Shown here: positions 16,195 to 34,653 of the stretch, one piece after another
Position numbering within the stretch: the stretch's first letter is position 1
Layout: each line of letters begins with the position of its first letter
From: Thermodesulfobacteriota bacterium
GTDB lineage: Bacteria > Desulfobacterota > DSM-4660 > Desulfatiglandales > Desulfatiglandaceae
Reading direction: 5' to 3'
NCBI GenBank assembly: GCA_028278625.1
Contig: JANQDY010000272.1
Coordinates: 38,611 to 102,610 of the forward strand
Length of the DNA: 64,000 nucleotides
Translations under genes and position numbers: made by a program
Notes under the pieces: model-generated
What the model was told of the DNA's origin: nothing
Seen by the model: the letters and a program-made list of their open reading frames with translations, nothing else
The model's database searches: none

Positions 16195-16818
16195 TCAGTC
16201 GATCATAAAATAATCGACATGTGAGCGTCTTATCCTGTTAACGGTGTGATCGACAGCCTTTATCAGTTTGATTAAATGGGGTATGGCATCGGCCAAATAG
16301 GCAGGCTTGCATGAACGGATTGAGGATGGCAGGAGGCTCGCCCATTGATTCAATAAAATCTCTGCAATCAGGCATCTTGAGGACCAGTCAAGGAAATCTA
16401 TGCGACTTCGGAATACCCACGCCTGATGGTTGTTTCTGAGTCTGTTGATGATAAACTCAGCCATTCGGGAAAGGACATTTGAAATGTCATGTATCCCATG
16501 TGCCAATGCAGCATCATAGGCCGGACATTCTTCATTTCCATAGGCTTTTTCGATAATGCTGACGGCTTCCGCGCGAGCTTTGGAATGGGGCAGATCAATA
16601 TGGACGCTTGGGCCTTTTATATGGAGCTTCAGAACAAAGGCTCCGATAACATCAAGAAAAATTTCATTGCTGAATCCGGTATTTTTATCATATTGAAAAT
16701 CGGCGAGAATTCGTTCCATAGGCTCATCGATGAAACTTTTCAGGTATTCCTCACTGGTCAGCTCAAAGACCTCCTTTAAAATTGCCTCTGCTTTCTCTCT
16801 TTTTTTAGAATTCCTCAT
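16195..16818 (-). CDS. Helical protein, fourth member of GGL-like family
   Basis: 207 residues, mostly alpha-helical, without recognised domain. Its middle aligns by eye with the proteins at 30090, 30683 and the tail of 31290: an F-x-x-V-I-G-A-F-V-x-x-L helix, a K-A-Y-G acidic helix followed by A-Y-D-A-A-L-A-x-G, then a helix (N-V-L-S-R-M-A-E), and an L-x-x-W-A-S-L-L-P-S-S-I ending similar to S-G-P-Y-L-G-N-S-I. The characteristic G-G-L is degenerate (H-D-I). It overlaps the HerA-like gene by 14 bp. Role unknown; a scaffold or adaptor function is a guess. Confidence 0.6.
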   Translation of the reverse strand: MRNSKKREKAEAILKEVFELTSEEYLKSFIDEPMERILADFQYDKNTGFSNEIFLDVIGAFVLKLHIKGPSVHIDLPHSKARAEAVSIIEKAYGNEECPAYDAALAHGIHDISNVLSRMAEFIINRLRNNHQAWVFRSRIDFLDWSSRCLIAEILLNQWASLLPSSIRSCKPAYLADAIPHLIKLIKAVDHTVNRIRRSHVDYFMID

Positions 16819-19276
16819 AGTCGAAACGCTCTTCGTTTTCGGGATCTATGAAGGAAGGACTCAGGGTTGCGTGTGGTACGACCCACCGGTCGCCGGCATG
16901 CCGTATCCATTTTTTCACTTCCGCTGAGGGTTTACAGAATTTCCTCCTGGAATTGTGGATGATTTGTTCCCTCAAATGTTTCAGAGGCAGATCAAGCGGT
17001 GGCCGGGTTTTCATTTTGATGATGTCCCTGCCGATTCTGGCGAAAGCTTCTCCCACATCAAGAGACACAAGGTCCTCGGGTTTTACTTTCAATTGCAGAT
17101 CTTTTGCCAAATAGTCGGCATCCCGCTTGTCCACCTTGAAAATGATCGAAGTGCCCACGCTCGAAAGGGCATCCCGTTTTTTGGCATTGAATTGGCTCAA
17201 ATACTGGTGCGCCAATGACAGGCCTACCCGGTATTTGCGAGTTTCAGCGATAAGGTTTTCCAGGGAATCGGTCATAAAATTGTGTGCTTCATCGCAGAAA
17301 ACATGGAACTGCTTTCTTTCGCCAATCGGTGTATCACTCCGGCTCAAGGCATTTAGGTGGAGTGTTGAAAGAATGAAGCACCCCAAAACTTTTCGAACGG
17401 TCACTCCCATATTCGAGAGATTTATCAATAGAATTTCCCCCTGGTCCATGATTCTTCGGAAATTGAAACGGTTCTCCGGCTGGGAGAGCATCAGGGATAC
17501 CGGGCCTGAAATGAGGAGTTTGGACAATTTATTGATGGGAGGACTCAGTTCGCTTTTACTATACCCTTTGTAATCGTGTTCCCAGAACTGCCTTGCGGTC
17601 TGATTGTCAATAACCTTTAATATTTCCCGTACCAACACATCATTCGTTTTGGATTTGTTGTGGAGAAGGTTTGAGATATCCAAAAAGGTGGCACCGGGCA
17701 AATGGCCCAAGCCGAAGACCAGGTTCCGAAGGATATTCTCTAAGCGGTCACCCCATCCTCCGCTCTCAACAAAACTTCTGATCGCCATGACCAGGTCATT
17801 TGCAAGTCGGCCGATCTCCATGCCCCGAATTGGTGTCAACGGATTCCAGAGTGGTACCCAATCCGGATCGGCAGGGTTGAAATACATGGTTCTTCCAACC
17901 TGTCGTTCGGGTATCAGGCACAAAAGCCGTTCTACCATATCGCCGTGTGGATCAATGACGGCTACACCGTGACCTCCATTGATGTCCTCAAGTATCATGT
18001 TTTCAATGGTTGTGGTTTTACCATACCCGGAAGCGCCGATTAAATGAAGATGACGTCTTCTGGACTTCTCAGGGATACAGGCGTTTTGGGAAGAACCCGC
18101 ATAATCGCAGGTGCCGATCCAGGTGCCTGAAAGCAGATCGGGATTGCGGACCGGGAGCGTTTCGAGAACGCATGTGGGTGTGGTGCAGAGATCGTTTTCG
18201 GAAAACGTCGGAATGTGGACCGGTCCGGTGAGTTCCTGGGAGTTGACCAAGAAGCCGGGATGGTAGGTCAATCCCTGTAAAAACATATCCCTGATCTGAT
18301 TTGCCGGAACTACTCCACGATATTCCCTTTCGGTCAAATACCCCAAAGGCCTTCCGCCGTGTTGGAAAAGGCCCATAAAAGTGGAAATGGCACTCAGAAG
18401 TTCCTTTCCTTTATTTTCAGACCCTACCACTGCCAGGCGTAACGCGGCGGAATAAAAGGGCTTATCGTTATGGGACTTGCTTTCCAATTCATAAGCGGAT
18501 TGCCGGAGATCTCCTGATGGCGATTGCTGGGTATATCGTTGTGAAATACCGGTACTGTTTTGAAGTTTTGCCATATATTCCATATCGAGTAAAATTTCCA
18601 CGTTCCGGCCCCAGTTATGGGAGGGCGATACAGGTTGCATAAGCGCCTGATATACTCCTATGCCGGGCGCCTCGATGCCGGATAGTGAAGCCATGAGAGG
18701 GATGAGAGGAGAAAGGTGAAGTTCCTGGGGCCTGGTTAAGAGATGTGAATAGGGCGGCGGCGGAAAATAGTCTCTCATAAGTATGTCTCGCCAGCCCGCA
18801 TTTTTTATGCCGTCCATCAGGGATTGTTCCATCAAAGTCAATTCGCACAGCTCGAATTCACCACGGAAAGCAGACATAATGATGGGTAAATCCTTTCGGT
18901 TAAGAAGAAAACCGATTGATACGCCATCACGATTGCCGATCACCTCGAAACCAAACCGATAATGGAGGAGTTGGAGCTGTTTAAGAAAACGCTCCGAATG
19001 GATCCAATCGAAGGCATATTCGGGGGAAATCCAAACCTGATAGCGCAGCAGTTCCTCCGGGGGTGCGGGTTGATTGATTGTCCGTGCGGCACCATCATCC
19101 ACATCCAGCCTGTTTTCGATCTTCCACAAAGGCATAAAGCAGGGTTCAAGGGCAACCGGACTTCTTGATAAGTCAGGACTGCAACCTTTCCGAATCTCTT
19201 CGCGCATAATGGCATGCAGCTTTGCCCCAATCATATGGGGTTGTGCCAGGGTTATCAGGGCCTGCTCAATGGACAT
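16805..19276 (-). CDS. HerA/TraG-like ATPase
   Basis: 823 residues. An approximately 400-residue N-terminal region of unknown fold precedes a pumping ATPase domain with Walker A G-A-S-G-Y-G-K-T (414-421), I-D-P-H-G-D, Walker B H-V-F-C-D-E-A-H-N-F, and the Q-Y-L-S-Q-F segment of TraG/VirD4 and HerA-type ATPases. No transmembrane segment is evident, so it differs from membrane coupling proteins. It may act on DNA as a motor, or move protein, as part of the neighbouring system; conjugative coupling is possible, but no relaxase was found. The 161-bp gap upstream of it is the largest inside this gene run. Confidence 0.8.
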   Translation of the reverse strand: MSIEQALITLAQPHMIGAKLHAIMREEIRKGCSPDLSRSPVALEPCFMPLWKIENRLDVDDGAARTINQPAPPEELLRYQVWISPEYAFDWIHSERFLKQLQLLHYRFGFEVIGNRDGVSIGFLLNRKDLPIIMSAFRGEFELCELTLMEQSLMDGIKNAGWRDILMRDYFPPPPYSHLLTRPQELHLSPLIPLMASLSGIEAPGIGVYQALMQPVSPSHNWGRNVEILLDMEYMAKLQNSTGISQRYTQQSPSGDLRQSAYELESKSHNDKPFYSAALRLAVVGSENKGKELLSAISTFMGLFQHGGRPLGYLTEREYRGVVPANQIRDMFLQGLTYHPGFLVNSQELTGPVHIPTFSENDLCTTPTCVLETLPVRNPDLLSGTWIGTCDYAGSSQNACIPEKSRRRHLHLIGASGYGKTTTIENMILEDINGGHGVAVIDPHGDMVERLLCLIPERQVGRTMYFNPADPDWVPLWNPLTPIRGMEIGRLANDLVMAIRSFVESGGWGDRLENILRNLVFGLGHLPGATFLDISNLLHNKSKTNDVLVREILKVIDNQTARQFWEHDYKGYSKSELSPPINKLSKLLISGPVSLMLSQPENRFNFRRIMDQGEILLINLSNMGVTVRKVLGCFILSTLHLNALSRSDTPIGERKQFHVFCDEAHNFMTDSLENLIAETRKYRVGLSLAHQYLSQFNAKKRDALSSVGTSIIFKVDKRDADYLAKDLQLKVKPEDLVSLDVGEAFARIGRDIIKMKTRPPLDLPLKHLREQIIHNSRRKFCKPSAEVKKWIRHAGDRWVVPHATLSPSFIDPENEERFDYEEF

Positions 19277-19438: not shown

Positions 19439-20692
19439 TCAGGAAGAAGAAAAGGTCAATGTGCAGCCTACTGATTTTGTAAGTGAATGACAGTTGTCTT
19501 TGAATATGTTGATCAGCTTCAATGCATCCGGAAGTTCCATTCTATCCAAGGTGTTGGCGGAAAAAAGCAGAAGTTCTTCGTTTCTGCAACGCTGCTCAGC
19601 AACGGGACAGCTTCCTTTTTCATGGGATGGATGCGAATAGGCTTGCGGCCAGACTTTGTCGCCATGTTTCTGGAATGCAGGCCTCAGATGAATCGGCATC
19701 CTGACGGGACCGGAATTGATTGAAACTCCTGAGGGATGCATCGATTCAATAAAGGACTCCCTGGACCTTCCGTTGCATTCCCGAAATTCGTAAGTCAAGG
19801 GCACACCATAGGCAGCAGAAATGTCTTCTCGCCTGCAACAAACGGCTTCAATATCCGGAATGGTTTTCGCTGTTTCATGTACCGCGCCCAGAATCCGTTT
19901 CCGGTGAGCAATCCTTTTGGGGGACAATTCGAGGTCCGCCAATGCCAGAGAGGCTGCCAGAGGATGGATGCGATAATTCCGGTTCAGTTCGGACCCTGCT
20001 ATATCGGGCTTGCCGATGACGTCCCGGAATACTCTGAGGGGGTGCTGTGAAATGGCAACCGCTTTTTCATAATGAGCCCGGTCATCGGTCGCCAGAACCC
20101 CACCCTCACCGCCAAAAACCGCCTTGCCCCGTCCCAGGCTGAAACAGGTCATATGACCCAGACCGCCGATTTTTCTCCCCTTTGAAAAGGCCCCCAGGGC
20201 CTGGGCTGCATCTGAAATGATATGGATTTCCCGATCTTTTGCCAGATCACACAAACTGTCCATATCCGCGGGATTTCCGAACAGATGAACCGGAAGGATA
20301 GCCTTTGTCCTGTTCGAAATTCTGGACTTGACGGAAAGCGGATCAAGGGTCAATGTGTCGTCAATATCCGCGAAGACGGCGGTTGCACCGGTAAAAAGAA
20401 CTGGCGAAACGCTCTGTCCCCATGAGTAGGGACTGACAATGACCTCATCGCCCGGACCCACACCTGCCGCCAACAATGCCGTGTGAAGCGCCGCCGTGCA
20501 GCTTGAAAGCGCCAGAGCAAAGCGAGCACCGCACGCATCGGCAAATGCGCTTTCGAATTCAGCAATCGGTCCAACGCCGGACAGGGAAGAGACCGAGGTG
20601 GAATCACGGAATCCCCGTCTCAGGACTTCCAGGACGGCTTTTTCATGTGCAGGCGTGATAATTCCGGATTCAAGAGACAACTGTTCTTCCAT
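19439..20692 (-). CDS. DegT/DnrJ/EryC1/StrS-type aminotransferase
   Basis: About 417 residues, fold-type I PLP enzyme. Features: L-S-S-C-T-A-A-L-H phosphate-binding loop, D-A-A-Q-A-L-G-A PLP-ring Asp, and the Schiff-base Lys in S-L-G-R-G-K followed by G-G-E-G-G. The family transaminates nucleotide-linked keto-sugars. It is odd here: no other sugar-nucleotide gene is in the window, and it sits between an AAA+ ATPase gene (GTGA/ATGA-type junction) and a HerA-like ATPase gene. Start could also be the GTG at 20701. Confidence 0.88.
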   Translation of the reverse strand: MEEQLSLESGIITPAHEKAVLEVLRRGFRDSTSVSSLSGVGPIAEFESAFADACGARFALALSSCTAALHTALLAAGVGPGDEVIVSPYSWGQSVSPVLFTGATAVFADIDDTLTLDPLSVKSRISNRTKAILPVHLFGNPADMDSLCDLAKDREIHIISDAAQALGAFSKGRKIGGLGHMTCFSLGRGKAVFGGEGGVLATDDRAHYEKAVAISQHPLRVFRDVIGKPDIAGSELNRNYRIHPLAASLALADLELSPKRIAHRKRILGAVHETAKTIPDIEAVCCRREDISAAYGVPLTYEFRECNGRSRESFIESMHPSGVSINSGPVRMPIHLRPAFQKHGDKVWPQAYSHPSHEKGSCPVAEQRCRNEELLLFSANTLDRMELPDALKLINIFKDNCHSLTKSVGCTLTFSSS

Positions 20693-20697
20693 GTTTA

Positions 20698-22464
20698 TCA
20701 CCGCATGGCCTTGGCATATTGCCGGGCACGCTGAAGCTCTTCCAGTTTTACATGAAGCGCTTCACGGTTGAGGCGACCTGTTTTGGGATCGACAATATCA
20801 TCGGCAATCAGGTTCTCGGGTATTTCCGCATCGTCTCTCAGACCCTCCATGGACATCCAGGGGAGCAGAGAATTGGCACTGCACATGGAAAGGGATGTGA
20901 GGGTAATAAACGACATCTCCAAAGGGGTTTCAGAAGGAAGGTAGTCTTCGGCCGCCGCCATGAGATGTTTCATTCCAATGGGATTTCCCGGCGTCTTTCT
21001 GTTGTGGTCGGCCCGGAGTCCGGCATGCACCAGGATTTCCTGAAGACTCCGACCGGTAGGCCGAAGCGGTGCAAGTGTTGCAGCGGATTTCTTGACGGAA
21101 ACATTCTTGAAAAGCCTGCGATCGAATTTTTTCAGAAGAATGGCAAAGAGTTCGGCTATTTCGCTTTGGCTTGGATGAAGTACCGGTATGGAGACCTTAA
21201 AACGGTCGACAATGGCCGGATCCAGCAGATCGGGCCGATTGGACGCGCCCACAAAGAGAATCCGACCACGGTGCTCCGGCAACGCCATCCATGACATGAT
21301 TCTGGCCAGCATCCTTTCGGAAGTCCCAGAGTCGCCCGAAGCACCGGTTCCCCTCTGGCCGATGAGTTGGTCTATTTCATCAAAGAAAATGATGCACCGC
21401 TCAAACTGCTCGGCCACCCTGATTACATGTTCCAATTGCTGCTCACTTTGACCCACATATGGCCCTCTGACATTGCGGAATTGAATCAGGACCCAGTCCA
21501 GGAAATTGGCCATGGACGCAACAACATGGGATTTTCCACAACCGGGGACCCCATTAAACAGAATCGATTGCGGAACGCCTTTTTGTCCACTCCTCAGCTG
21601 ATCCCTCAGTTTTATTAAAAACTCTTTAACCTGCCTGAATCCGGCGACCTGTTCCATGGTATCCTCCGGCTCAGACACTTCGAGAAGGTCACCTGTTAAC
21701 TGCCGGATGGAACGGGCCTTTGCAACCTTTACCTGTTCCCTGGTTACTTTTGTACTGTAGTGGTGTGAAGTTCGAAAAAGCTTTTCGATTTCCACCAACG
21801 GCATCCCGGCAGTGATGCCGGCCAATTCATCAGTATCCAATCCCGTTTCCAGATCTCCAAGGATTTTGCGCTCTTTTAAAAAATTGATAAAGGATAGACG
21901 TTCTTCAGTGCCGGGAAGGTTGACCTGGATCACCCGGTATCCATAAGACCGCGTGATCAGATCGGCGGGCATTTCACCGTAAGTGATGATCACGGCCCTT
22001 GATGCGCCTGCGGCAATACCGTCGTCCATGGACAACATGTGGAGCAGTTCTGTTGCACGTATCTGATCCGGAACCGCAGATGCGGAGATACCCAAGGAGT
22101 TCGCGGGAACCAGATGCTCTCCGTAATGAATCAGAACCAGCCATCTATCGCTTTTGTCCCTGAGCATTGAAATGATCTCATTTAGAACAACTGATGGTTC
22201 CTGTTGAGGCGACAAACTCCGCAGTTTTCGGTTATTTTTGTCGTCTGCTTGCCGAGGATTCAGTTCATTCAAACCCGTTGCGGCTGAATACTGCGCGATT
22301 CGATATTCCTGTTGGGCATATATTCCTGCGAGGAAGAATGAGAGGTATACGGGGCCGATTCTTTTTTCCTCCCAATAGTATCGGTCTGCCGTGTTGAAAT
22401 GGAGAATTGTGTGTTGCCGGCATGAAAAGGCTTTTTCCAATTCATCCAAGAATGCGGGTTTCAT
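20698..22464 (-). CDS. AAA+ ATPase, Ycf46-like, two-part
   Basis: 588 residues. The N-terminal 240 residues look like a degenerate AAA or Ycf46-type N-domain without a Walker A. The second half is an active classic AAA module: G-V-P-G-C-G-K-S (305-312), the pore-region R-G-P-Y-V-G-Q-S, Walker B I-I-F-F-D-E-I-D (358-365), sensor N409 and the arginine finger in P-A-I-V-D-R-F. The start overlaps the upstream gene by ATGA and has a GGGGGT RBS. Such ATPases remodel or unfold protein complexes. It resembles the Ycf46-like protein at 48945 but is clearly a different branch. Confidence 0.85.
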   Translation of the reverse strand: MKPAFLDELEKAFSCRQHTILHFNTADRYYWEEKRIGPVYLSFFLAGIYAQQEYRIAQYSAATGLNELNPRQADDKNNRKLRSLSPQQEPSVVLNEIISMLRDKSDRWLVLIHYGEHLVPANSLGISASAVPDQIRATELLHMLSMDDGIAAGASRAVIITYGEMPADLITRSYGYRVIQVNLPGTEERLSFINFLKERKILGDLETGLDTDELAGITAGMPLVEIEKLFRTSHHYSTKVTREQVKVAKARSIRQLTGDLLEVSEPEDTMEQVAGFRQVKEFLIKLRDQLRSGQKGVPQSILFNGVPGCGKSHVVASMANFLDWVLIQFRNVRGPYVGQSEQQLEHVIRVAEQFERCIIFFDEIDQLIGQRGTGASGDSGTSERMLARIMSWMALPEHRGRILFVGASNRPDLLDPAIVDRFKVSIPVLHPSQSEIAELFAILLKKFDRRLFKNVSVKKSAATLAPLRPTGRSLQEILVHAGLRADHNRKTPGNPIGMKHLMAAAEDYLPSETPLEMSFITLTSLSMCSANSLLPWMSMEGLRDDAEIPENLIADDIVDPKTGRLNREALHVKLEELQRARQYAKAMR

Positions 22465-23399
22465 GGCGACCCCCTTTTGATACGGTTCATGTTGATCTGA
22501 TGCATACGATTCAACAGTAAATGTCTATGGTATTCCGGTTTGATACCGAGGTTCCTGGCGGAAGTCTGTTTGGCAGAGATACTACTGGCCGCAATCTGGC
22601 CTTTCAGTACTTCTTTTTCAAATGAAGGAAATAGATCCTTCAGCTGATGGTTTTTCTTGTATTTCCTGAAAGGGTCTTCACAGATCCTTCCAAGAACAAG
22701 ACCTTTTCGCCGCAAGGCCCTTTCGAGCCTTGCCATCTCTTTCTGACAGGAAAGCCCGGGATAAGCAGTGCTGTCCAGACGCAACCGTCCTCCTTCGGCC
22801 CTGGCGCGGAGACAGACTTTCCCTTTTGCCCCGACAATATCCCTGCCGTTTCTATGTACGTCATAACCCAGACCGCTCAATTCTCCGGAGAGGGTTTCCA
22901 CAGCCACCAGGTCCTCTGTTTTGGAAAGAAAATAATGGGCGTCTTTTGCCGTCTCCCGCAGCAGCGGTTCACATTTCAGGGCCAGAAGATCAACGGCCTG
23001 GGCATCAGCCACCGCTTCCTCAAAATGGGTTTTGATGGTTTGCACAAGGGCGGAGGCTTTTTTCAGTTTCTCCCCATGTTTTTTCCTGGCGACAGTGGCT
23101 AAAGGTTGGATCCGGGTGATAGCATCATCGATCGCCAGGACATGGATCCCTCTCATCAAACCTTTGTTCTTTGTTTCTTTTAAAAGAACCTGTTCTTTGG
23201 GTTCCAGCTTTTTAGGAAGATACTCTGCTTCAAGCCTGATACGGTTTTTCAAATAGGCATTTTGAGCGGCTGACTCCCGTTCCATGGTTGTTGAATATGA
23301 CCCGCTCAGCGATATCCCTAGATCTTCCAATAGCCTTGATACTTCCCGCCTGATATCGCCCATGGCAACAACGATTGAAAAAATGCTCAGTTCGGACAT
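22461..23399 (-). CDS. Unknown helical protein
   Basis: 312 residues from an ATG with a strong RBS (ataggaggtgcac). Family not recognised. Residues 20-150 are charged and helical, with likely coiled coils; residues about 175-215 look like a small beta unit (G-Y-D-V-H-R-N-G, then G-R-L-R-L-D-S-T); the C-terminus is basic (R-M-H-Q-I-N-M-N-R-I-K-R). It is coupled to both neighbours, so it likely works with the AAA+ ATPase downstream and the membrane protein upstream. Confidence 0.7.
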   Translation of the reverse strand: MSELSIFSIVVAMGDIRREVSRLLEDLGISLSGSYSTTMERESAAQNAYLKNRIRLEAEYLPKKLEPKEQVLLKETKNKGLMRGIHVLAIDDAITRIQPLATVARKKHGEKLKKASALVQTIKTHFEEAVADAQAVDLLALKCEPLLRETAKDAHYFLSKTEDLVAVETLSGELSGLGYDVHRNGRDIVGAKGKVCLRARAEGGRLRLDSTAYPGLSCQKEMARLERALRRKGLVLGRICEDPFRKYKKNHQLKDLFPSFEKEVLKGQIAASSISAKQTSARNLGIKPEYHRHLLLNRMHQINMNRIKRGSP

Positions 23400-23408: not shown

Positions 23409-24536
23409 CTATTTTGCAAAAGGGTTCCATCCTTCACTAGATGGCTCAATTATTGATTCACTCTGCTTTTCTTCCTGATTTTCTTGTGGATTTTCAGCAT
23501 GCTCTGTGTGGTGATCTTCGTCTGGGGACTCGGGATCATCAGCGTCATGCACATCCAGTTGCTCCCAACCGAGCAGTGTTAAAATCCGACGTCCCATTGC
23601 ACCGAACAGCTGAATCGCCACGCTCGAAAATTGGTAAAATCTCTGAACGACTTCAGCCCAAATTCTTGATGAGAGAAGGAGGAGACCAAGGGGTGAGATG
23701 ATCAGGAAAGCCGCAATGAGCATGAGGAATTTAATAACCGCCACAAGGCTCCAACTGGAAAAGACGCCGCCAAAAAGAACGAGGATAGGAATACTGATAT
23801 TGGCGATGATGGGGATCCAATAATAGAGGCCTTCTTTCGGAGCATCCGCTATTTCGTCGGAAACCCCAAAAAAGTCAGCTCTCAAACCGCTGTTGAAACC
23901 ATTCAAAGACCCATTTTCTGAATAAGAAGAAGAGGACGGATCGAGACTTTCATCGGCAATTACTTTTCCTCTAAAAAGTCCCATCGTTACGGTCACGAAT
24001 AGGGACAATAAAAGAGAGAAAACAACCATATAGAGCAGGCATCTCTTGTATTGGGATGAAATCGTTTCCCTCCAGGGAATCGTTCGGGTGATACCGATAA
24101 GGTCACAAATGATGGCGCCCCATAAAAGAATGCTTGAAATGATCGCTAACGCTGTCAGAGTTCCGGCTCCCATGGGCGGATTGTAATGTCCTACATCGAT
24201 CCCCGCCGCCACCAGTGACAAAGCCAGAAGATGGAACTCCGAAAAAATGAAAACAAGGAAAAACGAACAATGTATTTTGGCTCCGATAAACTCAAGAAAG
24301 ACGTCCTGCAGATCGAGCTTCCCTTCCACAGTGAACTGTCCTCGATAAAACTTTGCGACGCCTCCCCAGAACTTTTCCAGGGAGTCGCCGATCAGAATGA
24401 ACGGATTCAGCAAAAGACTGAAAAAGGCCTCTGCTACAACCCTGATCCGACTTTCGAAGGCGCCACAAATGATCAGAACCAGTGTGCTACCCACGACACC
24501 AACGATTGTATATACCGCAAAAGACGGAAAACTCAT
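23409..24536 (-). CDS. Polytopic membrane protein with acidic tail
   Basis: 375 residues; the ATG at 24536 overlaps the TGA of the lipoprotein gene (ATGA). Hydrophobic stretches suggest about seven to nine TM helices, for instance near residues 5-25, 90-110, 120-145, 170-190, 255-280 and 285-310. A Ser-rich loop (S-S-S-S-Y-S-E-N) lies in the middle, and the C-terminal 60 residues are a hydrophilic Glu/Asp/His-rich tail. No family recognised. In this operon it is the best candidate for a membrane channel or anchor. Confidence 0.75.
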   Translation of the reverse strand: MSFPSFAVYTIVGVVGSTLVLIICGAFESRIRVVAEAFFSLLLNPFILIGDSLEKFWGGVAKFYRGQFTVEGKLDLQDVFLEFIGAKIHCSFFLVFIFSEFHLLALSLVAAGIDVGHYNPPMGAGTLTALAIISSILLWGAIICDLIGITRTIPWRETISSQYKRCLLYMVVFSLLLSLFVTVTMGLFRGKVIADESLDPSSSSYSENGSLNGFNSGLRADFFGVSDEIADAPKEGLYYWIPIIANISIPILVLFGGVFSSWSLVAVIKFLMLIAAFLIISPLGLLLLSSRIWAEVVQRFYQFSSVAIQLFGAMGRRILTLLGWEQLDVHDADDPESPDEDHHTEHAENPQENQEEKQSESIIEPSSEGWNPFAK

Positions 24537-26286: not shown

Positions 26287-26318
26287 GGTAACACCTCCTT
26301 CTCGTTGCTTTTTCTGGT

Positions 26319-26495
26319 TTAGAATGCGGACAGACCGATCAGGACGATAACGCCCGCAAGGACCGATGATGCAATTAAGATCCTCTTTGTGATCCTGTTC
26401 CGTATTCTGATTTTGAATACTATTCCTACCTCTAGTTGGATCTGATCGACCTCCCCATGAATTTGCCTGTTTAGTTCCGACATCTTCATTAACAT
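26319..26495 (-). CDS. Small single-TM protein
   Basis: 58 residues; ATG after gaggggaaaaaaa. The N-terminal 37 residues are polar and partly basic (K-I-R-I-R-N-R-I-T-K-R), and the last 20 form one hydrophobic segment (I-L-I-A-S-S-V-L-A-G-V-I-V-L-I-G), so it looks tail-anchored with the body in the cytosol. Located between the coiled-coil and WXG-like genes. No family known to me. Confidence 0.6.
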   Translation of the reverse strand: MLMKMSELNRQIHGEVDQIQLEVGIVFKIRIRNRITKRILIASSVLAGVIVLIGLSAF

Positions 26496-26506
26496 TTTTT
26501 TTCCCC

Positions 26507-26905
26507 TCAATGTCGTGCACCGAACAGTGGGATTAGATGACCAAGTCCAACCCTTTGAAGCAACTTATGGGCTCTTTTCATTTGGCTAAAAGACTCATTC
26601 CTCATATGCCTGGCTTCCCTATTCAGTTTGTCCTTTTCCAGAGCCGCTTTTGAAATCTCCCCTTCTTCGTGCTGTTCTAATTCCCTAAGCCGTTCATGGT
26701 GCCGTGTAATGGCTCTTTGTTCTTCCTGGAAATATTCTTCCTGGCTATTCTTCAGTTGGGCTTCTAATTTCTTTCGAAGCAATATTTTTTGTTCCTGCAG
26801 TCTTTCTTCAAGTCTCCTTATTTCCCTCTTAGTTTCCTCATAGGATGACAGGAATACCTTTACGGCGTTTCTGCATGAGAAATCTTTTGGCGGTGCATTT
26901 TTCAT
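26507..26905 (-). CDS. Coiled-coil protein downstream of FtsK-like ATPase
   Basis: 132 residues from the ATG at 26905, overlapping the stop of the ATPase gene (ATGA). Long heptad-like charged helix (R-R-L-E-E-R-L-Q-E-Q, then E-E-Q-R-A-I-T-R-H-H-E-R-L-R-E-L-E), about residues 25-120. Similar in character to the N-terminal coiled coil of the ATPase itself, so a complex between them is possible. Confidence 0.65.
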   Translation of the reverse strand: MKNAPPKDFSCRNAVKVFLSSYEETKREIRRLEERLQEQKILLRKKLEAQLKNSQEEYFQEEQRAITRHHERLRELEQHEEGEISKAALEKDKLNREARHMRNESFSQMKRAHKLLQRVGLGHLIPLFGARH

Positions 26906-29900
26906 AGGACACCTCCCGTTTGCTTTAACCATTCCTCATCAGGCATGGCATAGGGACGGAACTTCTCAAGTTGTTCCGCCCTGTCCTCGTCATAAAGAAT
27001 GGCTCTGAATTTGCCGAGCTTTGCGGCATCAGAACAGTCGATGAATTCATTGGATTCACCAACCGGCATCTGTAATGCCACCCGAAAACCGAATTCATGC
27101 AGGTTTCGACCAATTATCCGTTCGGTATTTCTAAGGGTATCCCCCCAGCAGATCGTGAATACCGCTGTTTCCGGACCGTGATCCAAAATGTGAATAAGTC
27201 TTTCGGTCGTCTCGGGAAAGGTGTAACCATCCTCGCTCCTTAGTTTTGAAGCCCGATGAATCCCCATGAGAATCAGAAAAACAGCCGTATCCGTTTTATC
27301 AGACATGGTTTTCTCCCGCATATTGACGCATTCAAAGGCCTTATCGATGCCATTGTTCACCGTGCCCCTGTCGTATAATGCCATTTTGTGAGGGAAGTAA
27401 TTCCGAAGGGAGCGAATGGCATGGTGTCCATTGCTATCCGGTCTAGTGAAGTCAAAGAGAAGAAATTCAATGCCTTTTGTTGACTTCTGGGCGGCCAGGC
27501 TGATTACGGCGTTGGCCTTCATGGCGGTTGACACCTTTTCATTTTTTCCGATTATCAGAAGATTGGATCGGCTTTCTCTATGAAAATTGACCCCTGTTGG
27601 CGGCTTGATGGCAATGGGTTCGCCCAGCCAGGCGATCAGTCCCGTTTTCGGATCATGGGACGAGACGGGGATTTTGAGAATCGCTTTCAGTTTTTCGTTG
27701 TTTCTAATATTGGCGGGGGCGTTGCCTTCAAAGATGACTTTTGTGGGGTTGGACGATTTCCTTTTCCAGGATTTTTCGAGACGACCAAGCTCTTTGAGGT
27801 TTTGTTTGCGCTGGCGGTCTGGCAAATGGAAGACTTGAAACAGGACATTACCTTCAATCAGCCCGTTTTTGTTGTTCAGGCAGGCTTCTCCTGGTCTTGA
27901 TAGTAATTTGGCCTGCGGATTGTCCTCGCCGAGAATCAGGCGAGATTCCATATCCGAACACTGAAGCGCGATGCGGATACCCATCTGGTCGAACGTTGAT
28001 CGAGGAAGGGTTTGTACCCCAGCCATTGACTGGCTTGCCAGGACAAGATGTATTCCGAAGGATCTGCCTTTTCTTGCCAACCGGTCAATGCTTGATACGG
28101 TTCCCTGAGAAAGCCTGTCATCTTCAGCGAAAAAATCCTGGAACTCGTCTATGACCATGACAATCCTCGGCATAATTCGTTCAGGGTATTTGCTACGAAA
28201 CTGGCCGATATTCTGAACACCCTCATTCCGGAATAGATCACCACGGCGGTTCATTTCGAGGATCAGTTTTTGAACTACGCTCAATCCATACTCTCTATCG
28301 CTTTCGATGGCGATGACCTTTACATGTGGAAATTCCACCCCGGCGTACTCTTTGAACTCCACCCCTTTTTTAAAATCTACGAGGTAGAGATTAACCTCCT
28401 CTGGCGCATAATGTATGCAAAACCCGGTGATGATTACGTGAAGCAGGTTGCTTTTTCCGGCCCCCGTCATCGCTCCAATCAGAACGCTGATATCGCTCCC
28501 TTTTCCTAACTCAAGATATACAATTCCATTTGCGCTTGACCGGCCAATGGGAATGGAGAGCCCTTCGCTTGAACCCGATTCCCAGCATTTGGAAAGCTGG
28601 TTGATGACCGTACTGTATGGTACCTCGATTTTGGAAGCTGAGATGGCTTTCTCCCCTACAGTTTTCAGAAGGCGCTTGGTCTTTTCCCAGGGCGGCAATT
28701 TGTCAATGGACAATTCGAAATCCTTTAAATCGGCATCATGCCAATTAATCCTATCTCCCTCGGCACTGATCACAATGGAGATGTTTTCCATTGAAGCCAG
28801 GTCGAAGTTTGGCGGGAATCTCCGGCTCATATCCCTAAGAAGAAGCAGATAAACACCGGTCCTGGGTCCGTTAGTAGCGATTGTCAAAAGCCTTTGTGCC
28901 GCCGTTTCCGTGAAATTGGCAGGGAAATCCAAAATAATGATCACTCGATAGGGCTCGGCGATTTTCCCGGCATGGCGGTTGTAATCCCCTATGGATGAAA
29001 AATCGTTTCTAAGATACGTCTGATAGACTTTTTCCTGGTCTTCGGTAATGGCCATTAATCTGCGTTCAATCTGTTCAGGCTCGGTCCAGATCTTTGAACC
29101 CACGATAACCTCAGGAAGGTGCATGAATCCCGCCATATTCGATCCAAGGCCTAGAGGGTCCAGCATTTCGATCTTGAGCTTGCCTGGTGGAATTCCCACC
29201 AAAAGCCGCAACATCAGGATCCGCATCATTTGAAGTGCCCTGTTTCTGAGGGATTCACACGCCTTGATGATAACGTTTTGAACCGAGATAATTGGCAGGA
29301 AGGCCGGAACCAATAATGGATTCCTCGCCCCGTCAACCTCCATTCTATATTCTCCAACCCGCGTTAGGGCAGATGATGGCATTTCTTCTGGTGGTGTGTA
29401 ATGGTGGTCCCAATAATCATCGTCCCATGACTTCCATTCTGTGGGATGTGTCCTTTCTGTCTTTTTTAGCTTTCTAGCCAAGACAGCTCGTTTTTTTGAT
29501 AAGTTGCTTTTTATTCTCTTGATTTCTCCCTGATGGTTTTTTTCCGTCTCATTCAGCTCTTTTTGAAATGCACTTTCCACCTGCGCCACTAGATTCCTTC
29601 TTTTTTTCTTCAGCAGCGTGATTTCTTTCTGAAAATCTTTCTTGGCCGCGTGCCGTTTTTCTTGGTAACGATGTTCAATATCAGCCACTTTTTTTCTGGC
29701 CTCCTGATCTATCGAAGCCTTGGCCGTTTGGTATGTTTCATTTATATTGTTGTTAAGATCAGCCACCCGCCGGCCGCGATTTTCTATAGATTGAAGGAGT
29801 TCCTTGTAGTGTGAATAAAAAAGAGTAGCCCGATGCCTGGAATTTAATTCATCAGAATGATCGTTTATGACGACATGTAGGGGCTTGGGCTCAATGCGAT

Positions 29901-30012
29901 TCGCAATGGTGTCGATGAAGGCAGGGACGGCATTTAGAAAATCACGCCCACGATTAAAAAACCGGTGCAGAGTTCCAATAAAGTCTTTGTATGGTTTTGT
30001 GGGGGACATCAC
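26902..30012 (-). CDS. FtsK/EssC-like ATPase with N-terminal coiled coil
   Basis: 1036 residues. About 60-185 is coiled coil; 240-460 contains a nucleotide-binding-like fold without a good P-loop (I-E-M-L-D-P-L-G, V-I-I-I-L-D-F-P); 480-720 is an active FtsK/SpoIIIE domain with Walker A G-A-M-T-G-A-G-K-S (513-521), L-Y-L-V-D-F-K-K-G, Walker B I-V-M-V-I-D-E-F-Q (617-625) and L-A-S-Q-S; 795-1000 is a second, degenerate domain where Walker A reads I-I-G-K-N-E-K-V-S-T. One active plus degenerate ATPase units is the layout of EccC/EssC, the motors of type VII secretion. Unlike these, it lacks FHA and TM segments. Start is GTG or the next ATG. Confidence 0.82.
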   Translation of the reverse strand: MMSPTKPYKDFIGTLHRFFNRGRDFLNAVPAFIDTIANRIEPKPLHVVINDHSDELNSRHRATLFYSHYKELLQSIENRGRRVADLNNNINETYQTAKASIDQEARKKVADIEHRYQEKRHAAKKDFQKEITLLKKKRRNLVAQVESAFQKELNETEKNHQGEIKRIKSNLSKKRAVLARKLKKTERTHPTEWKSWDDDYWDHHYTPPEEMPSSALTRVGEYRMEVDGARNPLLVPAFLPIISVQNVIIKACESLRNRALQMMRILMLRLLVGIPPGKLKIEMLDPLGLGSNMAGFMHLPEVIVGSKIWTEPEQIERRLMAITEDQEKVYQTYLRNDFSSIGDYNRHAGKIAEPYRVIIILDFPANFTETAAQRLLTIATNGPRTGVYLLLLRDMSRRFPPNFDLASMENISIVISAEGDRINWHDADLKDFELSIDKLPPWEKTKRLLKTVGEKAISASKIEVPYSTVINQLSKCWESGSSEGLSIPIGRSSANGIVYLELGKGSDISVLIGAMTGAGKSNLLHVIITGFCIHYAPEEVNLYLVDFKKGVEFKEYAGVEFPHVKVIAIESDREYGLSVVQKLILEMNRRGDLFRNEGVQNIGQFRSKYPERIMPRIVMVIDEFQDFFAEDDRLSQGTVSSIDRLARKGRSFGIHLVLASQSMAGVQTLPRSTFDQMGIRIALQCSDMESRLILGEDNPQAKLLSRPGEACLNNKNGLIEGNVLFQVFHLPDRQRKQNLKELGRLEKSWKRKSSNPTKVIFEGNAPANIRNNEKLKAILKIPVSSHDPKTGLIAWLGEPIAIKPPTGVNFHRESRSNLLIIGKNEKVSTAMKANAVISLAAQKSTKGIEFLLFDFTRPDSNGHHAIRSLRNYFPHKMALYDRGTVNNGIDKAFECVNMREKTMSDKTDTAVFLILMGIHRASKLRSEDGYTFPETTERLIHILDHGPETAVFTICWGDTLRNTERIIGRNLHEFGFRVALQMPVGESNEFIDCSDAAKLGKFRAILYDEDRAEQLEKFRPYAMPDEEWLKQTGGVL

Positions 30013-30089: not shown

Positions 30090-30668
30090 CTATCTGAAAC
30101 CCTTTCTGATCCTTCGGATCATATCCGGATGCGCTTCGAGCACCCTGGCAAAATTGGATTTGATTCGGGCGGCACTCTCCTCCGTCAGCTCGTGAGGGAG
30201 AAGATGACCGTATTCTTCGAGATAAGTGTTGCAGGTCTCCAATTCTTCATCCACCGAAAGCCCTACCAGGAAAATGCCTACGCGAGCTTGAATTTCTTTG
30301 GTGGCATACTCATGGGCCATGCGTTTTGCCATGGACTTCAGAACAGAATAGAGACCTCCTTCCACTCCTGTACGGCATATTTCGAAAGCCGTTCTCGGGC
30401 CGCTGGGGCCATATTCGGCATTCAGCAAATCCATACAGCGAGTCCAACACCTGTCCTTATCAAAGGCTATTTCAGAGGAAATACGAAGGGCTTTCCGCTC
30501 CATATTGCAGTAACATTTAGCCAGGAACATCCTAAATTGATCCCAATCATCAAGTACCGGATTTTCAACTCGAAGCGTTGTCAATGCTTCATTCAAACGT
30601 TCCTCCATCGGATCAAGGGTCCTTGACGGATCGATATCCTGCAACAAACTATTTAAGCTCTTTTTCAT
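30090..30668 (-). CDS. Helical protein, GGL family member A
   Basis: 192 residues, RBS aaggag. The centre has D-Q-F-R-M-F-L-A-K-C-Y-C-N, then L-L-N-A-E-Y-G, A-F-E-I-C-R-T-G-V-E-G-G-L-Y-S-V-L-K, and C-N-T-Y-L-E-E-Y-G-H-L-L-P-H-E-L. The same sequence of elements occurs in the next upstream protein and in the tail of the Lon-like protein. Unknown function; likely cytosolic. Confidence 0.7.
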   Translation of the reverse strand: MKKSLNSLLQDIDPSRTLDPMEERLNEALTTLRVENPVLDDWDQFRMFLAKCYCNMERKALRISSEIAFDKDRCWTRCMDLLNAEYGPSGPRTAFEICRTGVEGGLYSVLKSMAKRMAHEYATKEIQARVGIFLVGLSVDEELETCNTYLEEYGHLLPHELTEESAARIKSNFARVLEAHPDMIRRIRKGFR

Positions 30669-30682: not shown

Positions 30683-31264
30683 CTATAATCGTCTGAGCGT
30701 TCTTGCCGTTTTTGTGAGCCCATCTGTATAGGCTCTAATAAGCTCCTCATAATTATGAGCATAGCGCTCCGGCGAATCGGCCTGGATCGAATTGCCGAGA
30801 TAGGGGCCGCTCAATTCAATAAAATGGCGTATGATTTCCACTTTCTCTTCCCACGCGTTGGGTGCGACATTTCGATCAAAAACGTCGCGGATATAGAATG
30901 CCACTGACTCACTTTTAAGCTTTTCACAGAGAACATCCAGAATCTGGCGAAGACCACCGTTGGTCCCGTTGCATGCATCGTTAAATGCCATCAGGATATC
31001 ACCCCCGTAACGCCTCCGGTACTCCTGGTCCAGAATCTCCTTGGCGCGACCTGCGGCTTCCGTAGATGACATACTGCCCCCCATCGAGATGCAGTTGCGG
31101 TAATGATGGATTAGATATTGACCAATAATGGTGCCGAATTCGTCGTAGTCAGAGACCGTATTGGATGACAGCCTGAACGTCGTTCTGGCCGTATCCGCAG
31201 GAATCCCCACCGCTTGAGCAATTCGTGCCTCATCGAGTTCTCCCAGAATATTGGTGATCGACAT
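30683..31264 (-). CDS. Helical protein, GGL family member B
   Basis: 193 residues from the ATG at 31264, preceded by gaggaggaacct. Key elements: I-I-G-Q-Y-L-I-H-H-Y-R-N, L-D-Q-E-Y-R-R-R-Y-G, A-F-N-D-A-C-N-G-T-N-G-G-L-R-Q-I-L-D-V-L-C-E-K-L-K, and F-I-E-L-S-G-P-Y-L. It is the best link between the Lon-like tail (G-G-L-R-Y-V-F-D-L-I-T-E-K-L-K) and the shorter proteins. Function unknown. Confidence 0.72.
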   Translation of the reverse strand: MSITNILGELDEARIAQAVGIPADTARTTFRLSSNTVSDYDEFGTIIGQYLIHHYRNCISMGGSMSSTEAAGRAKEILDQEYRRRYGGDILMAFNDACNGTNGGLRQILDVLCEKLKSESVAFYIRDVFDRNVAPNAWEEKVEIIRHFIELSGPYLGNSIQADSPERYAHNYEELIRAYTDGLTKTARTLRRL

Positions 31265-31289
31265 AGGTTCCTCCTCTCTTGATTTCATT

Positions 31290-32966
31290 TCATATGGCTA
31301 TGAAAGCTCTTTTTAACTTCTCCATTGATTCCAATAAATTTCTTGCAAGTATTTCGCAGGATTCCACAAATTTCTCAGGGGGCTGTGAAACGATTTCAGG
31401 AGGCAAGTGATCCCTCAGATGTTCAATCAGTGCTTTTGTCACGACAAGTCTCTTTTGCCTGTCCAACGGGTCCAGAACGGTTTTGAACAGGAGACGCAAT
31501 TGTTTTTCCTGCTCTTCTCGTTTTAATTTTTCTGTAATTAAATCGAACACATAGCGTAAGCCACCTCTCGGAGCATCTCGGGCTTCTGCCAGCGCTGCCT
31601 TGAGACCCCCTTCTCGTGCAAAAGCACTCTCCAAAACTTCACAGCAGGCGGCCTGGGAAAACATAGAATCAGGTGATTCCAGCATTTCTCCGTAGTGACG
31701 CTGGATATGTATGAAAAAAGCTGTTGCAGCATCCATGGCCTTCTCAGAATCTTCGGCAATTACTGAATCGATGCGATAGGCGGCACGGGCAGAGTCAAAC
31801 TTTTTTGCGATGTCGGATCGAATCCTATTGGCCTCTGTTATCAGAAATTGCAGTTTTGCTTTACCGTTGTTGGCGCTTTTACCGAAGGCCTTGAAATCAC
31901 TTCCGGCGATTGGGGAAGCATTGGCTTTGCCTGACGCAGCCAGTAAAAGATATTGAGCGTCCTCATGGTCGATAGTGCGGACAAATTGGCAGAGTTTGAA
32001 AATCTTTCCCGTGGAAGTCAGCGGGAATTTGATTTTAAGACGCCGGATCTCCGGGGGAAGAGAAAGTAACAGACCATACAACCGATTGCCGAGCTTACTT
32101 GGATACCGTTTCTGGTGTAGAAAATAGTCTACATATGCAGTCAAAAGCCTTTTGGCATCCTGACTCCGACCTTCAACGAGCTGGTGTTCCAGTACTTTCC
32201 AGAATCGCGCCGAATTTTCTGCCAATAGAAATTCGGATACCTTGGAAACAGGCGATCTTTCGTTTTGAACTGGTGGAATGCCTTCAAAAAAGCGAAAATT
32301 CAGACTGGCAATCACAATTTGTTCATCTGAGAAAACCGACCGTACAAGGTCGATGATATTTAGAACCGGGGCGACCTTGATGTGCTTTTTTGCCTGAATA
32401 ATGGCATCCTCAACACGTCGTTTTTCATGAGGCGTAAAAATATCAATTGAAGAATCCTGATTCATTGTCGGATATATAAATCTACTCATTTTGGCCGTCA
32501 CAGCTGCCGACACTTTGGCCGGTATGCCCCTTACCATTCCAATATCGCCATCCAGTGAAGCGATGTGCCCGGTTATGACTAGATCATCTGGTAGGTTCAA
32601 TTTGAGTCCTGCGGCCAGAAACAAGACAACTAGGGGGGCATCAGATGAGAATCCTGAAATTTTGGTCCCGAGGTCATAAAGGGACGCCGCGCCGGGATTG
32701 ACAATTGAAATGTAGAAACGCAATTTCGGGATACCCAAGTTTCCTAGAATTTCGTCTGCTATCGGAAGCAGTATTTTTTGAATATGTTGTTCAGCCTTTT
32801 CGTCGAACTGGGCGGGGCCGATAAACCAGAGGCGATTACCTTCGTTCCACACAGATCCTCTGACAGCCACAATGGAAATTATTGCCGAGGCGGCTTCTCC
32901 TTGACCTTGCACAAAAACGGCGTTAGATCTGGCCGTAAATGAATGATTTCGCGAACTACTCGCCAT
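31290..32966 (-). CDS. Stand-alone Lon-like (S16) peptidase with helical tail
   Basis: 558 residues. Residues about 20-215 match the proteolytic domain of Lon without its AAA part: S-G-F-S107-S108-D-A, L-V-I-T-G-H-I-A-S-L-D-G, R-G-I-P-A-K151-V-S-A-A, F-I-Y-P-T-M-N-Q. S108 to K151 is 43 residues, the Ser-Lys dyad spacing of Lon (679 to 722 in E. coli). The usual small residue after Ser is Asp here, so activity needs proof. The last 160 residues carry the GGL helical domain shared with two following genes. The start overlaps the previous gene by 11 bp. Confidence 0.72.
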   Translation of the reverse strand: MASSSRNHSFTARSNAVFVQGQGEAASAIISIVAVRGSVWNEGNRLWFIGPAQFDEKAEQHIQKILLPIADEILGNLGIPKLRFYISIVNPGAASLYDLGTKISGFSSDAPLVVLFLAAGLKLNLPDDLVITGHIASLDGDIGMVRGIPAKVSAAVTAKMSRFIYPTMNQDSSIDIFTPHEKRRVEDAIIQAKKHIKVAPVLNIIDLVRSVFSDEQIVIASLNFRFFEGIPPVQNERSPVSKVSEFLLAENSARFWKVLEHQLVEGRSQDAKRLLTAYVDYFLHQKRYPSKLGNRLYGLLLSLPPEIRRLKIKFPLTSTGKIFKLCQFVRTIDHEDAQYLLLAASGKANASPIAGSDFKAFGKSANNGKAKLQFLITEANRIRSDIAKKFDSARAAYRIDSVIAEDSEKAMDAATAFFIHIQRHYGEMLESPDSMFSQAACCEVLESAFAREGGLKAALAEARDAPRGGLRYVFDLITEKLKREEQEKQLRLLFKTVLDPLDRQKRLVVTKALIEHLRDHLPPEIVSQPPEKFVESCEILARNLLESMEKLKRAFIAI

Positions 32967-33516
32967 TGTTGGTATCCTTGATCTCTATCTGCAGAAATCC
33001 AGCCTCAAGGCCAGGATAGACCCTAAGTATCAGATCGCCTTTCATCAGTATGATTTCGCGGGTTCTTTGAGTTGTTTGGTCCCCCGTATCAGCCGCTAAA
33101 AGAAAACTTTCTTCAGGAAAGGCGTATTTCCAAAGAAGTTCTTGTTCCGTTAAACGCCCTTCCCAAAGGAAACGTCCCGTATTCAGTTTGATTGTATATA
33201 ACCCTGGTCTTGCGTCTTTGATTACTCTTACAGAAGGAATTTGGGCTATCAAAAAGGAATCAATGGCTTTATTCTTTCTTAGAATGTGCATTTCCAGTGG
33301 AATCAGGTCATGTTCCGGCTCCACTTTCTGCCTACCAGGTAGATCCAGGCTTTTTCTAGCTTCAGCCATAAAACGCCTGAACTGAATATGGCCTTGTTCG
33401 TAGCCTGCCTTTCCACCCAATAGTTCGATTTGTTCAAAAGCTTTCAGGAGGGAGTTCCTCGGATTACTATCCTGGAAAGCCCGGGCTATCAGCCTGATGA
33501 AATAGAGATCTTCCAT
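32956..33516 (-). CDS. Unknown protein, helical N-half and beta-rich C-half
   Basis: 186 residues; RBS gggaggaaaaaatcg. First 60 residues helical (F-I-R-L-I-A-R-A-F, Q-F-R-R-F-M-A-E-A-R). From about 90 on it is beta-rich: S-V-R-V-I-K-D-A-R-P-G-L-Y-T-I-K-L-N-T-G, R-F-L-W-E-G-R-L-T, L-I-L-R-V-Y-P-G-L-E-A-G-F-L-Q-I-E-I, a layout like a regulatory or anti-sigma-type sensory domain. It lies between the sigma-like gene and the Lon-like gene, so a role in controlling the former is conceivable. Family not recognised. Confidence 0.65.
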   Translation of the reverse strand: MEDLYFIRLIARAFQDSNPRNSLLKAFEQIELLGGKAGYEQGHIQFRRFMAEARKSLDLPGRQKVEPEHDLIPLEMHILRKNKAIDSFLIAQIPSVRVIKDARPGLYTIKLNTGRFLWEGRLTEQELLWKYAFPEESFLLAADTGDQTTQRTREIILMKGDLILRVYPGLEAGFLQIEIKDTNNGE

Positions 33517-33531
33517 CGATTTTTTCCTCCC

Positions 33532-34653
33532 TTATTTCTGTCCTGGGCCGTTGGTTTCAAGAACCTCTTTAATCGTGTTGAGGTATCCCGCTTCTTTAGC
33601 CACTTCCAAGAAGATGGGATTTTTTGACAGGACTGAAGCCGTGTTTCGCCACAAATCCGGCACAGATGAGCCATTATCCCGCCAACGGATTCCCGCAAAG
33701 CGTGACATGGTACTTTTTGAAATATGAAACTCCGATGCCAATGGGCCCTCTTTGAATTCGCCGCAGTCGAGGTCTTCAAAGACTCTTAGGATCAAGCTTT
33801 TCAGTTTTTCCGGACCCAAACTTTTGATGGAACGGCGCTGTTTTTGGATGTTCTCAGCCTTTTCCTCGGCCACTTCCCGGGCCAGAAGAAAAGAGAAATC
33901 ATCTTTTGGGCTTTCACTCAATCCACAATTGTCATCAGCAGGAATCATAGCTTCTTCAAATGTAACCCAGCAATTGGACTCAAGTTTTTTGTTGATAATC
34001 TCTTGAACTCTTCTCTTTTCGTTAGGTCTATCGGGATCAGGATCCGGCACATTGGTGTCCAGCCATTCCCTGCGCTCCTTTCCCAGAAGCGTTTTAGGGA
34101 GCCAAACGCTGATCTTTCCGCCCTTGACTGACCAGGTAAACCTTGAGCGGAATGTCTGTGACATTCTGATGGCCTCAAGCCGGCAGAATTGACTTTGTCG
34201 AATCACAAAACTCCGCAAAATGACCACCGAGATTCTCTCTTCTTCAATTTTGTTTTTTGGTGGATTCTTAATAAGCTCAGCGCACATCCGGTTTAGACAG
34301 GCCGATAGATAAAAGCGGCAGTCTGGGCCTTTTTGTTTCACATTTGGCTTTGAAAAAGGAAGATCATGGTCATCTGGCAGATTAGTGAGCCTGTCGGTCA
34401 GGAGGTCGATCATTATCTCGGCGACCATTTCGGAATCGATCCCTGACCATCGTCCATTGGAAAGGGCCTCACGCATTAGGTTGAGATAATCGTGTAACGG
34501 CAAATCGGTTTTATCCCCAAATTTGAAAACCGGACGGCTAGGAAATTCATCAAGAGCTTGCCGATCCGAGTTTTCCACAATGCATGTTAAAAGCTGTTTT
34601 AGGGATATGAATCGATATCTGTCTGGCAGCGCTTTCCCAATTCGTTTAGGCAC
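33532..34653 (-). CDS. Sigma-like DNA-binding protein, first gene of cluster
   Basis: About 373 residues. A middle helix (R-F-Y-L-S-A-C-L-N-R-M-C-A-E-L-I-K) resembles sigma region 2 ends, and near residue 320 a helix-turn-helix reads L-A-S-E-F-H-I-S-K-S-T-M-S-R-F-A-G after a leucine-rich helix, like region 4. A divergent sigma-70/ECF-type factor or regulator that lost canonical residues is the best guess. It begins the long minus-strand run and is divergent from an HTH-phosphatase gene. Start taken as GTG 34653 after GGAAGGG; TTG 34671 is open too. Confidence 0.55.
   Translation of the reverse strand: MPKRIGKALPDRYRFISLKQLLTCIVENSDRQALDEFPSRPVFKFGDKTDLPLHDYLNLMREALSNGRWSGIDSEMVAEIMIDLLTDRLTNLPDDHDLPFSKPNVKQKGPDCRFYLSACLNRMCAELIKNPPKNKIEEERISVVILRSFVIRQSQFCRLEAIRMSQTFRSRFTWSVKGGKISVWLPKTLLGKERREWLDTNVPDPDPDRPNEKRRVQEIINKKLESNCWVTFEEAMIPADDNCGLSESPKDDFSFLLAREVAEEKAENIQKQRRSIKSLGPEKLKSLILRVFEDLDCGEFKEGPLASEFHISKSTMSRFAGIRWRDNGSSVPDLWRNTASVLSKNPIFLEVAKEAGYLNTIKEVLETNGPGQK

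Follow-up and report, generated by a model that had tools for sequence, protein, structure and literature searches.

Gene content of the cluster

We analysed a stretch of 64,000 nucleotides (the window) from contig JANQDY010000272.1 of a Thermodesulfobacteriota bacterium, in which 16 minus-strand genes lie in one tight run (34671-19439, spacing between -71 and +77 bp). An original prediction, made from the sequence alone, had described this region as a type VII secretion-like cluster on an integrative element; the run does exist, and the open reading frames (ORFs) that the prediction named are present and intact (Table 1). A HerA-like ATPase gene and a small helical protein gene come 162 bp after the run. 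The HerA assignment agrees with the TrwB_AAD_bind match, but the gene had been counted as part of the run and, given the gap that precedes it, could form a unit of its own.

The FtsK-like ATPase matches the FtsK/SpoIIIE family of Pfam (PF01580, 4.4e-31) and EccC (4nh0, 1.6e-45), and EccC ranks above both FtsK and TcpA in the sequence match. According to the structure model and its fold matches, a long helix is followed by a degenerate domain, an active domain and a second degenerate domain. The Walker residues are retained by the middle domain alone in all 125 sequences compared (125/125). The N-terminus has no hydrophobic segment, and the single 19-mer above the hydropathy threshold, which begins at residue 230, is modelled as two strands (232-238 and 245-250). 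Thus, hydropathy and model both bear out the earlier statement that the ATPase lacks transmembrane (TM) segments.

WXG1 is a protein of 90 residues that starts at the ATG at 26286 and carries no toxin fusion. It matches PF06013 at 1e-8 (35.8 bits against a cut-off of 27.3, scanned in the longer frame 26014-26520). Two WXG100-like proteins had been claimed; this match settles one of them, whereas the other, the WXG2-like ORF, has no Pfam match and leans on a model built from the ORF and four relatives. It also matches WXG1 weakly in phmmer (about 0.002). Among the scanned proteins, Pfam found no EsaB/YukD (TsxB) ubiquitin-like protein. For the core, that is, the EccC/EssC-like ATPase with WXG100, the label "type VII secretion-like" is right.

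Of 23 pairs compared, 22 show a higher identity for WXG1 than for the full-length ATPase (means 45% and 36%), and 7 show a higher identity for WXG1 than for the active-domain region of the ATPase (mean 49%). This conservation relative to the ATPase mildly favours a working part over a fast-changing effector.

Table 1. Features of the cluster and of the element backbone, with the evidence for each assignment
Feature	Position	Strand	Evidence
379-aa protein, first gene of the run, earlier called sigma-like	33532..34671	-	ORF; no Pfam/PHROG match
186-aa protein	32956..33516	-	ORF; no Pfam/PHROG match
558-aa Lon-like protein, C-terminal helical domain	31290..32966	-	6 relatives; protease La homolog structures 2.3e-6; family alignment
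Helical-domain paralog 1	30683..31288	-	phmmer to Lon-like and paralog 2
Helical-domain paralog 2	30090..30668	-	phmmer to paralog 1
EccC/EssC-like (FtsK-like) ATPase, no TM	26902..30012	-	PF01580; EccC 4nh0; model and fold matches; Walker residues; hydropathy
132-aa charged protein, probably coiled-coil	26507..26905	-	ORF; 4-nt overlap with FtsK
58-aa single-TM ORF	26319..26495	-	Hydropathy; no match in 37 FtsK loci
WXG1, 90-aa WXG100 protein, W-R-D motif	26014..26286	-	PF06013; 23/34 FtsK loci
173-aa coiled-coil-like protein between WXG1 and WXG2-like	25489..26010	-	Weak matches in L080/L088, located between WXG1 and FtsK
WXG2-like, 74 aa, W-D-D motif	25335..25559	-	Relatives' model matches 20/34 FtsK loci, 4 by construction
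246-aa predicted lipoprotein, MIDAS-like (vWA) motif	24533..25273	-	Lipobox LAFSGC and DFSGS by reading
375-aa polytopic membrane protein, C-terminal W-x-P-F tail	23409..24536	-	34 homologs; alignment; 8 hydrophobic segments (hydropathy)
312-aa protein	22461..23399	-	ORF; no match above Pfam cut-off
588-aa CDC48/p97-like AAA+ ATPase	20698..22464	-	PF00004 1.4e-24; VCP-like ATPase 3.1e-35; one P-loop at 305
DegT/DnrJ/EryC1 aminotransferase, last of the tight run	19439..20701	-	PF01041 6.7e-67; 4-nt overlap with AAA+ gene
823-aa HerA/TrwB-like ATPase, 400-aa N-terminal region	16805..19276	-	PF10412 (TrwB_AAD_bind) 3.1e-8; P-loop at 414
Helical-domain paralog 3	16195..16818	-	phmmer to Lon-like 6.5e-5
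tmRNA, probable integration site	12974..13329	+	ARAGORN
Tyrosine integrase (element backbone)	13417..14721	-	XerA-type model 3.8e-12 (below cut-off); phage integrases ~30% identical
Small HTH protein, AlpA-like by reading (element backbone)	14795..15052	-	HTH_17 0.0045, below cut-off
AEP-TOTE primase (element backbone)	15049..16146	-	PF22548 1.2e-39

aa, residues; HTH, helix-turn-helix; vWA, von Willebrand factor A; MIDAS, metal ion-dependent adhesion site.

Partner proteins of the core

The polytopic membrane protein was confirmed by its hydrophobic segments and its homologs, which form 34 clusters besides its own (identities of 38-72%; no cluster has an NCBI source). Near the C-terminus (encoded at 23409-23520) the motif W-x-P-[FYI] is present in 24 of 24 aligned members, the alignment covering 24 of 35 matches. 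It is preceded by an acidic stretch that has low confidence in the structure model and is probably disordered. We predict that the tail motif is likely a docking peptide. A fold search with the polytopic model gave no meaningful match, which is evidence neither for a novel fold nor for a known one. In whole genomes from three phyla the family was not found (0/398, 0/194 and 0/246); these samples contain no known positive and no Desulfobacterota, and the result shows little.

The 246-residue protein had been called a vWA lipoprotein. By reading, it has the lipobox and a MIDAS-like motif (DFSGS at residue 49, T147 and D176), but Pfam (at 0.5) and the PDB gave no match, and no alignment to a Pfam-confirmed vWA protein rose above shuffled sequences. 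A homology with the vWA protein of one related locus (L012) was also rejected.

The Lon-like peptidase of the original prediction fared similarly at the level of Pfam (0.08, below the cut-off). On the other hand, the family profile matches structures described as "putative protease La homolog" at 2.3e-6. In this profile match, GFSAD falls onto G(A/D)SAS and GIPAK onto GVTQK, segments which we take to carry the Ser and the Lys of archaeal LonB. The family alignment covers all 7 sequences (the protein and its 6 relatives).

A helical domain of about 170 residues occurs in four copies, three as stand-alone genes and one fused to the C-terminus of the Lon-like protein. In phmmer, the Lon-like copy matches paralog 1 at about 1.2e-13 to 2.9e-13 and paralog 1 matches paralog 2 at about 8.3e-10 to 1.7e-9, although a plain two-sequence BLASTP of paralogs 1 and 2 gave nothing; the match of paralog 3 to the Lon-like protein ties both ends of the cluster together. 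The domain has nothing above the Pfam cut-off and is not matched by any ORF of the 37 FtsK loci compared below. It had been absent from the original prediction, as had the aminotransferase and the 58-residue ORF. The AAA+ ATPase, in contrast to the "sigma-like regulator", was confirmed; for the latter we found no support in either Pfam or PHROGs.

Distribution of the cassette and of its partners

Next, we asked how widely these genes travel together. The FtsK alignment uses 20 of 120 listed homologs, and the tree 60 of the 120 proteins together with 34 related loci, whose genes were called by a greedy ORF script. Of the 34 loci, 23 have a WXG1 gene, in each case less than 2 kb away from FtsK. 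The WXG2-like gene was found only in Planctomycetes and Limisphaera loci. Both models were partly built from loci that are counted here (5 for WXG1, 4 for WXG2).

The ATPase is found at E <= 1e-100 in 31 of 246 sampled genomes of the phylum of a Kuenenia genome and at 1e-40 in 4 of 398 of the phylum of a Nitrosomonas genome; both samples include known matches, and since the profile comes from relatives of the window protein, distant forms may be missed. A scan of genome contigs gave at least 14 loci. Among the matches listed, the pair of WXG1 and FtsK is present in two Pseudomonas genomes, one Nitrosomonas and one Hominisplanchenecus. Both are present in all four loci L011-L014. In L012 (Pseudomonas), Pfam places a vWA protein, a Card1-type nuclease, PP2C, a kinase and an SF1-type helicase beside them, and two L011 proteins are a methylase and RE_endonuc.

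The outer partners behave differently. We compared 4503 ORFs (of at least 45 residues) from 37 FtsK loci, that is, the 34 and L102-L104, at E 0.1 for profiles and E 0.001 for single proteins; contig ends cut some loci, e.g. L001 and L083. There was no match to the polytopic, Lon-like or helical-domain profiles, nor to the vWA-like, 312-, AAA+, HerA-like, 379-, 186-, 132- and 58-residue proteins or the primase. The only partners with matches were the 173-residue protein (two, both weak) and DegT (four, three of them adjoining FtsK: L082, L093 and L094, out of 20 loci of one set). Loci L102-L104 have an FtsK-like ATPase followed by two ORFs of about 90 residues with a weak relation to WXG. The run of L103 continues with a GDPD-domain protein and a 799-residue protein with four hydrophobic segments, while an Hsp70-like gene lies on the opposite strand; this is another partner set that includes a membrane protein.

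The closest relatives give a different picture. The longest contig named for the 67% identical FtsK, the 72% identical polytopic protein and the 63% identical Lon-like relative (a piece of 319 residues) is in each case 24,059 bp long, and no other contig size is common to the three. We take these relatives to lie on one contig, for which the equal size is indirect evidence, and the partner set is therefore probably conserved in a narrow clade. The window ATPase groups in a 20-member clade (support 1.0, with weaker support at some inner nodes) from which all 34 locus sequences are absent and which has one named member, from Desulfamplus. Whether the genes stay together thus has two answers: the outer partners were found in none of the 37 loci but seem linked in the closest relative.

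Queries with FtsK and with the polytopic, Lon-like and HerA-like families found no relative on viral contigs, and a scan with the FtsK alignment gave 38 viral loci that match mainly over the active ATPase domain. In plasmid records FtsK has 652 matches, all below 60% identity, the HerA-like ATPase 204 and a second HerA 11; no Lon-like or vWA-like protein was matched there.

Genomic setting

The first genes of the window are chromosomal ones (LigA, Ffh, TrmD, RNase HII, a 16S rRNA methyltransferase and a PEP-protein phosphotransferase). After the tmRNA follow, on the minus strand, the integrase, the small HTH protein and the primase, and then the cluster. Because the tyrosine integrase lies 87 bp from the tmRNA, the cluster looks like part of an integrated mobile element, as had been claimed; we found no duplicate of the 3' end of the tmRNA (the att site) within the window. 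Beyond the cluster the region remains element-like, with a family B DNA polymerase, a SNF2/ResIII helicase, a DUF6094 methyltransferase, RadC, DUF3150, another AAA protein, a HerA and a PD-(D/E)XK nuclease. No relaxase and no type IV secretion system (T4SS) channel gene was found among the window proteins scanned, and the contig extends past the window. Furthermore, 35123-36532 (+) encodes one protein that joins an XRE-type HTH to an inositol-monophosphatase-like domain, and 60846-61466 resembles, by reading alone, the end of a DDE transposase. Promoter and terminator scans did no better than chance.

What the cluster may do

We propose, with a probability of roughly 45%, that the cluster is a membrane-anchored variant of a mobile type VII secretion system (T7SS) module, used for translocation or membrane-associated protein handling. 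The proposal starts from gene content and order, domain order, catalytic residues and the conservation of the tail motif. The cytosolic EccC/EssC-type ATPase would probably form a hexamer with one active motor domain, and its degenerate flanking domains would handle the two WXG100-like helical hairpins. The W-x-P-[FYI] tail of the polytopic protein may recruit one or more cytosolic ATPases to the membrane, and the vWA-like lipoprotein would act across the inner membrane from them. Unfolding or turnover of client proteins, or of the complex, may fall to the CDC48-like AAA+ and to the Lon-like protein, which the common helical domain links to other members. The net effect would be ATP-driven protein translocation, or protein handling at the membrane, by a mobile element. 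A narrower version, in which the TM-less EccC-like motor and WXG100 dock on the polytopic W-x-P-F tail, with the lipoprotein outside and AAA+ and Lon-like proteins inside, as an autonomous mobile translocation machine, seems to us rather doubtful.

Several observations weigh against secretion: the ATPase has no TM segment, no secretion substrates were recognised, the active ATPase domain would also fit a DNA translocase, and the related FtsK loci examined manage without the outer partners. The choice between secretion and defence remains an inference, as the original prediction had put it. An intracellular anti-phage module, that is, a cytosolic cassette within a defence island as proposed for the Type III-A CoCoNuT inserts, is rather unlikely. 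It gains from the presence of WXG1 and FtsK in all of L011-L014 and from the defence-type genes of L011 and L012, from the window having one ATPase for each broad type among the three Type III-A inserts of PMC11090510, and from the methyltransferase, helicase and nuclease elsewhere in the element region. Yet the 20 proteins in and beside the run include no McrBC, kinase, PP2C or nuclease above the cut-off, and the PADLOC matches of 10 proteins (SspH, mad8, DndH, IetA and others) we read as superfamily-level motor matches and rejected as defence systems. Moreover, the FtsK proteins of L011-L014 are just 26-32% identical to that of the window; they are the outgroup of the tree, where their outside position is by construction. 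We rate a membrane-anchored mobile T7SS variant as more probable than a defence cassette that acts in the cytosol alone.

The polytopic protein, the lipoprotein and the HerA/TrwB-like ATPase could also be a minimal conjugation apparatus for which FtsK pumps DNA. This use in DNA transfer of the element has little chance in our view: the scanned proteins lack relaxase and channel components (again with a contig that continues), EccC outranks FtsK and TcpA, and we know of no role of WXG proteins in conjugation. It is also improbable that a stand-alone WXG/FtsK cassette merely sits inside another cluster with no joint function. The absence of the outer partners from all 37 other loci would fit such a chance neighbourhood, as would DegT and genes without an assigned role within the run, but short gaps or overlaps extend along the entire run, the three relatives name the same 24,059-bp contig, and the ATPase clade excludes the 34 locus sequences.

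Comparison with known systems

The original prediction knew of no named system with this gene set. We did not find the whole set in the literature searched either, but the core is in print (PMC3482391, PMC11090510): it is widespread and already described, whereas the partner set is new within the reach of these searches. BREX and DISARM were rejected, as a Lon-like protein alone is insufficient. Gram-positive T7SS (PMC11217815) share with the window the EccC/EssC-family ATPase and WXG100, and T7SSc also has a vWA protein. Their ATPase is membrane-bound, and TsxB (EsaB/YukD) is found in most subtypes; in the window the ATPase is not membrane-bound and neither TsxB, nor another core component, nor substrates were recognised. 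PMC4978471 describes WxG/FtsK islands of Helicobacter pylori, calls WxG and FtsK a minimal T7SS set and lists one island as "WXG100 secretion system"; unlike the window, these clusters are listed with a DnaK homolog and with an HNH/EndoVII nuclease.

Another parallel is the EssC/WXG100 extension described for Type III-A CoCoNuTs. PMC11090510 considers a different mechanism likely for it because TM segments are missing, and reads such cassettes as secretion-linked parts of defence operons. Shared features are a TM-less EssC-like ATPase that has an N-terminal coiled coil and is active in its central domain alone, a pair of WXG100 proteins of which one is atypical (here by the relatives' model), a coiled-coil protein and, nearby, a vWA protein (in the window a vWA-like motif only). 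The gene set of L012 fits this extension. The window differs in that a McrBC-type core, a kinase, a phosphatase and a nuclease fusion were not recognised, that its vWA-like protein has a lipobox, and that polytopic, AAA+ and Lon-like genes are added. Specifically, no McrB, DUF2357 or SF1 helicase exceeded the cut-off in the 20 scanned proteins, and of the TerY-P triad, frequent in Type III-A but not core according to the authors, there was no PP2C or kinase but only the vWA-like motif. In the same text, the EssC-like ATPase with WXG100, a CDC48-like AAA+ and a VirB4-like ATPase accompanied by a small helical protein are inserts of different Type III-A subtypes. The window has EssC-like, CDC48-like and HerA/TrwB-like ATPases (the last with a helical neighbour) in one locus and without the CoCoNuT core; for the latter two, the parallel is a resemblance. 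An inactive first AAA domain is reported for the CDC48-like insert; for the window protein we rejected it (the comparison was below shuffles, with no PDB match for that part) and claim one P-loop only.

The core is also described in Table 1, footnote 6 of the 2012 survey PMC3482391, where "mobile versions of T7SS" consist of a solo WXG and a YueA-like ATPase with three HerA/FtsK domains of which only the middle one is active. The window has the solo WXG100, the three-domain, middle-active ATPase and a probable mobile setting, and goes beyond the footnote, which mentions neither a membrane protein or lipoprotein nor an AAA+ or Lon-like partner. The autonomous translocation machine considered above, if real, would bring together in one locus kinds of ATPase that occur one at a time in different CoCoNuT subtypes. 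The rare combination of partners could show how membrane-less motors reach the membrane. In the polytopic family, whose tail peptide is strongly conserved, the locus supplies a concrete candidate for a membrane partner, and whether and how these motors act at a membrane therefore becomes testable.
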